A stretch of DNA of 64,000 nt from Phormidium tenue FACHB-1050. GTDB lineage: Bacteria > Cyanobacteriota > Cyanobacteriia > Pseudanabaenales > Pseudanabaenaceae. The notes below the pieces were generated by a model. The model made no database searches, was not told the DNA's origin, and was given only the letters and a program-made list of their open reading frames with translations. How positions within the stretch are numbered: position 1 is the first letter of the stretch; every line of letters begins with the position of its first letter. Shown here piece by piece: positions 7,385-8,786 of this stretch. The stretch lies in the NCBI RefSeq assembly GCF_014696925.1, contig NZ_JACJQY010000001.1:248001-312000 (forward strand), written 5' to 3'. The translations under genes and the position numbers were made by a program.

Positions 7385-8517
7385 GGATGACGCTCCTCAG
7401 TAGAAGACGAAGATTCCGTGAGATAACGACCAAACTTTTCGACAAATTGATTGTCGATAATTGCTTGGCGCATTTGTTGAGTGAATCGAATCAATTCAGT
7501 AATATTGTGAATTGATAGTAACGTATAGCCCAAAATTTCTTGCGATCGCACTAAATGGCTAATATAAGCCCGCGAGAAATTTTGGCAAGCGTAGCAATCA
7601 CACTCACAATCAATGGGGGTGAAATCACGCTTAAATTTTTGGTTTTTGAGATTCCAGCGATCGCCTCTGACCAGCGCAACACTGTGCCTTGCAAATCTTG
7701 TAGGAATAACACAATCAAATAAGTCAATGCCTGCGGCCACGGCTTGAGCCATTTCTTTATATGTTCCAACACCCATGAGATAGCGAGGTTTATCAACTGG
7801 CAACAGTGGAGTTGTGGCTTTAACAATTTTTTCGATTAATTCTGGTGGTTCACCAACACTTACTCCGCCGATCGCATAACCTGGTAAATCAAACTCAATT
7901 AGTTCTCGTGCTGACTGTTGACGTAAATCTAGATAAACACCGCCTTGGACGATACCAAATAAAGCTTGATCACTCTGGCGATCGTGCGCTTTAATACATC
8001 TCTCTAGCCATCGTGTTGTGCGTTGTCCCGCTAGTTTGATTGCTTCATAGGTAGAAGGATAAGGAGCACATTCATCAAAAGCCATGATCACATCTGCCCC
8101 CAGTTGATTCTGGATTTGAATCGATTTCTCTGGCGTGAGATTAATCATATTGCCATCACGAGGCGATCGGAACTGGACTCCATCTTCACTAATTGACCGA
8201 ATCTCGCTCAGGCTAAAAACCTGAAATCCGCCTGAATCAGTCAGGATTGGACTATCCCAGTTCATAAATTTATGTAGTCCCCCTGCTTCGGCAACAATAT
8301 CCTCACCTGGTTGGAGATGGAGATGATAGGTATTTGCTAAAACCATTTCGGCTTTGCAGTCTTTAAGCTGTGCAGGCGTGACAGTTTTTACATTCGCCAA
8401 TGTGCCAACTGGCATAAAACGGGGGGTATGCACAACTCCATGTGGCGTATGAAATTGTCCAACTCTGGCATCAGTCCTACTGCACTGACACTCTAATTTA
8501 AAAGTAAAGTTATTCAG
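7381..8517 (-). CDS. tgt: Queuine/archaeosine-type tRNA-guanine transglycosylase Tgt, probable CTG start
   Basis: Exchanges guanine 34 in GUN-anticodon tRNAs for a queuine precursor. Catalytic features are visible: [13 protein letters not shown] (nucleophile region), GVGTYKEM (substrate loop), [12 protein letters not shown], and the zinc ligands CECDCYAC plus a later His. An ATG/GTG-restricted reading starts at GTG 8433 and loses the conserved N-terminus. Reading on upstream in frame gives 28 more codons, including [20 protein letters not shown], which fit the family. The extension contains no ATG; a CTG at 8517 sits 9 nt after an AGGA Shine-Dalgarno match and just downstream of an in-frame TAA. 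I therefore place the start at 8517 (378 residues). The downstream LapA-like gene overlaps by 4 nt. Confidence 0.92.
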
Positions 8518-8786
8518 GGCTTACAATCCTAATTCTAATATTTTGTGTTTGTATACTAATTCAAACAGTTTTTAATTGTATCGCACTCATTGGTTACTTC
8601 TAAAACGATCCTAGCTTTTTTGCGAAACTATCGCGATCGTTTATTTTCAACCTCTTCAGCTATAACCAACCATTTAGGATAGCTATATAGCTAGAAGTAA
8701 TTATGGGAAGTAAAAAGATTGTTTTAGAATAAACTCTAAGATAGCGCTTCAAGCCAAGCAATTAGGTTTAATTTTGAATATATAAA

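Follow-up and report, generated by a model that had tools for sequence, protein, structure and literature searches.

A conserved CTG as the very probable start codon of tgt in the genus of Phormidium tenue FACHB-1050

The tgt locus and its N-terminal coding sequence

The window, by which we mean the whole 64,000-nucleotide stretch of Phormidium tenue FACHB-1050 DNA analyzed here, carries tgt on its minus strand. Read from the proposed CTG start codon (8515..8517, minus strand), the coding sequence would span 7381..8517 and comprise 378 codons plus TGA; it matches TIGR00430 and Pfam TGT, and its frame is open from 8520. On the minus strand the region reads TTG (8526-8524), TAA (8523-8521), GCC and CTG (8517-8515), followed by AAT AAC TTT ACT TTT AAA TTA GAG TGT CAG TGC and further coding sequence down to a GTG at 8433-8431. 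The in-frame TAA (8521..8523, minus strand) closes the tgt frame upstream. A first-pass annotation of the window had placed this stop at 8524-8526, three bases off, where TTG stands. It had correctly noted that neither ATG nor another GTG precedes 8433 in the frame, and TTG is absent as well: between TAA 8523-8521 and GTG 8433 the window sequence contains no in-frame ATG, GTG or TTG. From the TAA to the conserved Tgt block, CTG 8517 is the sole near-AUG codon. Also as annotated, nine bases separate the CTG from an AGGA Shine-Dalgarno-like motif (8527..8530, minus strand; read 8530-8527). Directly behind the AGGA, the TTG and TAA of 8521-8526 resemble a start-stop pair by eye; this TTG is not kept in all genus loci, and the pairing is thus perhaps chance.

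The 28 codons preceding GTG 8433 are conserved Tgt sequence by profile homology. TIGR00430, the profile for bacterial Tgt (curated cut-off 306.75 bits), scored 547.5 bits with the extension and 525.3 without it, with coverage of profile positions 2-359 of 368 versus 23-359 and a match beginning at residue 8, numbered from GCC 8520. Pfam TGT likewise scored 520.9 bits with the extension and 498.1 without. Alignments to solved Tgt chains, except the accessory subunit, began at query residues 8 to 13 in the same numbering. The profile scores bear out the earlier claim that a conserved Tgt N-terminus is encoded upstream of the first GTG, and profile and structural alignments are consistent with its prediction that the enzyme would lose its first strands without the extension. 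Across 24 genus loci, codons 2-28 (8434..8514, minus strand), which form the conserved N-terminal stretch absent from a protein begun at GTG 8433, have 11, 5 and 23 variable columns of 27 at codon positions 1, 2 and 3, which in this alignment is the pattern of coding sequence. A codon-usage score of -3.6 bits over 29 codons did not see the extension as coding, at a length where its power is low; because it failed to pick out tgt, this score was dropped as a test for non-canonical starts.

Downstream of tgt lies an ORF of 119 amino acids (7025..7384, minus strand), by eye small membrane protein-like, which overlaps the tgt stop as ATGA. Ten of 25 genus loci, that of the window among them, have both the overlap and a similar protein. 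The ORF is probably co-transcribed with tgt, and the two form a possible operon with translational coupling. Because of the ATGA overlap, low initiation on tgt may affect the downstream ORF too. A similar small protein comes after tgt in many genus loci.

The start codon across the genus

Counting the window's own, 26 genomes of the genus were examined; 25 carry tgt, and the one without it is 76% complete. Counts were taken on the 24 ungapped genus loci. The 25th, L025, was set aside as ambiguous: it too has CTG AAT AAC at this place, but an insertion follows, the CTG is flanked on either side by in-frame TTG, and a GTG lies further up. At the homologous position we found CTG in 22 of 24 loci, TTG in two (L021 and L024), and ATG or GTG in none. 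The first-pass proposal that tgt starts at CTG is thus supported, and the check it had suggested, for ATG at the same position in relatives, returned none. This distribution makes a sequencing error or a freshly lost ATG very unlikely. The two TTG loci adjoin on the tgt tree, beside a CTG locus (L018), an arrangement most simply explained by a single change from CTG to TTG. Both have TAA at -6, and for them the homologous codon is therefore the first canonical start. A canonical in-frame start before codon 28 is absent from 19 of the 22 CTG loci; the remaining three (L012, L013, L018) have TTG at -9, touching AGGA with zero spacer. The AGGA position reads AGGA in 21 of 24 loci, AGGG in L008, AAAG in L021 and AAAA in L024, and conservation drops just 5' of it in the genus alignment. 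On a tree of the rest of tgt, the first base of the start codon changed once and the second and third bases never, whereas 112 fourfold sites underwent a mean of 6.0 changes; five of the 112 had one or none. The first base is conserved beyond neutral expectation, with moderate strength for a single base. We considered a repeated element around the tgt start and rejected it, as the 19-base start context is present in a single copy in each of the 19 of 26 genus genomes that have it. From these comparisons, the CTG start is very probably real and has persisted across the genus, apart from what looks like one switch to TTG.

An alternative is that the N-terminus derives from an upstream in-frame start or a frameshift and that the CTG is an ordinary leucine codon. 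CTG/TTG variation would be synonymous for leucine, L025 has in-frame TTG and GTG codons upstream, and TAA at -6 is missing in five of 24 loci, three of these with in-frame TTG at -9. Nevertheless, the codon at -6 is TAA in 19 loci (CAA in two, TCA in two, TTA in one), and L003 and L009, which open further up, have no canonical start there. In the window the other two frames stop at the start itself, with TGA (in CTGA) and TAA (in AATAA). From the -10-like box region down to the start a single ATG occurs, at 8590, and its nine-codon reading frame runs into TGA well short of the start. We regard this account as improbable to a high degree. Even less credit attaches to translation from GTG (8431..8433, minus strand), with the conserved stretch upstream left as a relic. 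A mechanical ORF list picks this codon, before which the frame offers no canonical start, but it is GTG in only 15 of 24 loci and is replaced by GTA in five and GTC in four. Moreover, codons 2-28 retain their coding pattern, the TIGR00430 score drops by 22 bits with this start, and the conserved block upstream of its position is present in all 49 other class loci read. An assembly or sequencing error at 8517, for which nothing was found in favor, has a negligible chance, as 22 of 24 loci, drawn from different genome assemblies, share the codon.

We also scanned 389,005 bases of the same genome (the window and 18 other stretches), keeping 256 long ORFs. Twenty-four of these, tgt among them, have at least 18 codons before the first canonical start. 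A Pfam search covered 20 of the 23 others, leaving out L320:13774-14274, L334:6430-6960 and window:5146-6939; window:52284-52742, with a shorter lead-in, was also outside the set. In none of the 20 did the best Pfam stretch begin more than one residue ahead of the first canonical start. Thus, in about 389 kb and with 20 of 23 others checked, tgt is the only case with family homology clearly upstream of the first canonical codon. In 19 of 24 genus loci, a start caller confined to ATG, GTG and TTG would predict a Tgt 27 to 34 residues too short.

Initiation at CTG and the tgt leader

We put at about 0.9 the probability that CTG 8517 is where translation of Tgt begins in this genus. Comparative data support where the start lies, that it is conserved and that the extension is coding, as well as the Shine-Dalgarno-like motif and a standard initiator tRNA stem. 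The simplest account would be Shine-Dalgarno-led CUG initiation by fMet-tRNA. The AGGA nine bases upstream would position the ribosome on CTG 8517, where initiator fMet-tRNA would pair with the second and third bases and mismatch at the first, giving a predicted N-terminus of Met-Asn-Asn-Phe-Thr-Phe. A relaxed initiator tRNA with a changed 30-40 pair was rejected as an aid to such initiation, since the anticodon stem is standard GGG/CCC (GGGCTCATAACCC) in 25 of 26 genus genomes; in the 26th, which is 76% complete, the initiator tRNA pattern was unmatched.

Initiation at CTG would be inefficient. According to PMC11497404, base pairing at the first position of CUG is poor in E. coli initiation complexes, complexes formed on CUG fall short of those on AUG, GUG or UUG in stability, and neither the normal nor a variant initiator tRNA begins efficiently on CUG. 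Poor CUG initiation in published E. coli work leads us to expect low Tgt output. One reporter study (PMC9845219) gives CUG activity as undetectable in tobacco chloroplasts and E. coli; in light of this result, Tgt output from CTG could be very low.

Upstream of the start, GATACAATT (8574..8582, minus strand) includes a TACAAT -10-like box. In 16 of 24 genus loci the TACAAT box, or GATAYAATT, is found 50-66 bases ahead of the start, and its conservation suggests a leader of about 50-60 bases. A leaderless transcript was rejected on the same grounds and because, by eye, no -35 element is conserved just above AGGA. An Rfam search of 7200-9000, up to E 10, found no preQ1 riboswitch or other Rfam family in the leader; its single match at or below E 10 (E 4.4) was to an unrelated family and fell inside the tgt gene.

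Weak tgt starts in family and class

In 11 family genomes from beyond the genus, the codon found most often near the tgt start was ATG, in seven (G027, G028, G029, G030, G035, G036 and G037, with GTG also in G036 and G037); the family therefore does not forbid ATG. Three others (G031, G032, G034) have GTG without ATG, and G033 has neither, with ATT nine bases after AAGG. For the class, we surveyed the window and 49 of 51 other genomes (G138 and G145 left out), assigning starts by rule and not by annotation. Upstream of the conserved block in these 50 Cyanobacteriia loci, the canonical codon closest to it was TTG in 19, GTG in 15 and ATG in 12; four had none: the window (CTG), L146 (genome G093), L150 (genome G142) and L153. 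In L146, an ATC nine bases after GGAG is the sole near-AUG codon between TAG and the conserved block. L150 has ATT, plus ATA five codons up, and the Gloeocapsa-like L066 has ATT at the same place with no canonical codon back to the stop. L153, with its distant ATG, was not counted as non-canonical, nor were L054 (distant GTG/TTG) and L071 (diverged N-terminus). Judging from these single genomes or pair, ATT or ATC probably serves as the tgt start in a few other lineages. A second set of 46 cyanobacterial tgt loci chosen by similarity (L027-L072) gave TTG in 22, ATG in 16, GTG in five and none in three. Thus tgt of other Cyanobacteriia encodes the same enzyme with the same N-terminal block, often from TTG or GTG, whereas CTG without a canonical alternative occurs, among the tgt loci read, only in the window's genus. 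Outside Cyanobacteria, ATG was nearest in 22 of the 34 best tgt matches (Bacillota by name).

In the class survey, ATG is missing from the 20 codons nearest the conserved block in 37 of 50 tgt loci. The same rule was applied to five control genes, taking the best 30 of at least 52-53 matches per gene; two miaA, two truB and one infC could not be located. Loci without ATG numbered three of 30 for queA, four of 28 for miaA and none of 30 for hisA, or seven of 88 when pooled, a pooling chosen after the counts were seen. Counts for truB (16 of 28) and infC (17 of 29) were much higher, together 33 of 57, and all five controls gave 40 of 145. The infC anchor lies some 18-20 codons inside the gene, so that the rule suits infC less, and Fisher values for the comparison of tgt with controls are overstated because related genomes are not independent; all family, class and Bacillota counts are likewise uncorrected for relatedness. 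Since the starts of truB and infC are comparably weak, tgt belongs to a set of weak-start genes and is not unique. By inspection, truB of Cyanobacteriia (L198-L227) often starts GTG CAA GG, and cyanobacterial infC (L288-L317) often reads ATG CCT GTG, with several loci lacking a canonical codon near the conserved block.

Why would a weak start codon persist? Our preferred reading, to which we give an even chance, is that cells need little Tgt and that a low dose has been selected, with the weak codon limiting how much Tgt, and perhaps how much of the protein from the overlapping ORF downstream, is made. Weak tgt starts are also frequent in other cyanobacteria, where output may be held low. Against selection for dose, truB and infC are about as weak, and ATG stands near the start in seven of the 11 family genomes, a figure uncorrected for relatedness. 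A serious rival, which we rate plausible yet short of even, is harmless drift: the CTG would be the true start without regulatory meaning, an ancestral weak start having drifted to CTG while the need for Tgt was low. Retention of CTG may amount to one event, since a single origin is common to the genus, and the same ATG count in the family speaks for drift in that no family-wide ban on ATG exists. Two observations argue for selected low dose over drift: the first base changed once where fourfold sites changed 6.0 times on average, and weak tgt starts are frequent in the class sample. In each case confounders are partly uncorrected.

A broader and more tentative proposal extends selected low dose to the class: cyanobacterial tgt may be under lasting selection for poor initiation, with queuosine capacity tied to the initiation machinery, for example to the level of IF3. 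It would take in the TTG or GTG starts of most class members sampled, the CTG fixed in the genus, and ATT/ATC in three other lineages, namely G033, G142 with L066 (ATA also possible), and G093. Bolder still is a possible feedback: codons 2-3 of tgt are AAT AAC, with GAT AAT in the two TTG loci, and the tRNAs that read them are modified by Tgt itself. Should weak tgt starts prove to be selected, queuosine, and hence NAU decoding, would be linked to translation initiation.

Non-AUG starts in general are of a known kind. The infC gene of E. coli has an AUU start and is autoregulated by IF3. Like infC, tgt of this genus keeps a weak, non-canonical start on a translation-related gene; its codon is CUG, however, and its product a tRNA-modifying enzyme. 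Gvozdjak and Samanta (arXiv 2008.10758) reportedly described genes that prefer non-AUG starts in bacteria, and tgt resembles these in having weak starts across many species. Sugar regulators of Enterobacteriaceae have conserved non-ATG starts thought to set protein dose (PMC11445065); those are mostly GTG on repressors, whereas the genus tgt has CTG on an enzyme. Switches of start codons to CUG are rare: PMC5622118 counts, over 36 genome triples, two among 61,358 ancestral AUG, one among 5,080 GUG and one among 2,468 UUG starts. Queuosine is thought to modulate decoding of NAU codons, according to PMC10570037. No report of a CTG start of tgt was found in the open-access literature searched.

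Some minor features were noted in tgt of relatives. A second, distant Tgt-like gene with 34% identity lies in a family relative at G033:C2:1314573-1315676. In two others, the tgt match is in two pieces (G027:C32 and G035:C268), perhaps through assembly errors. In Planktothricoides sp. SR001 (L054), a tandem repeat coding for (NNLA/NNLG)n stands right before the conserved tgt block.
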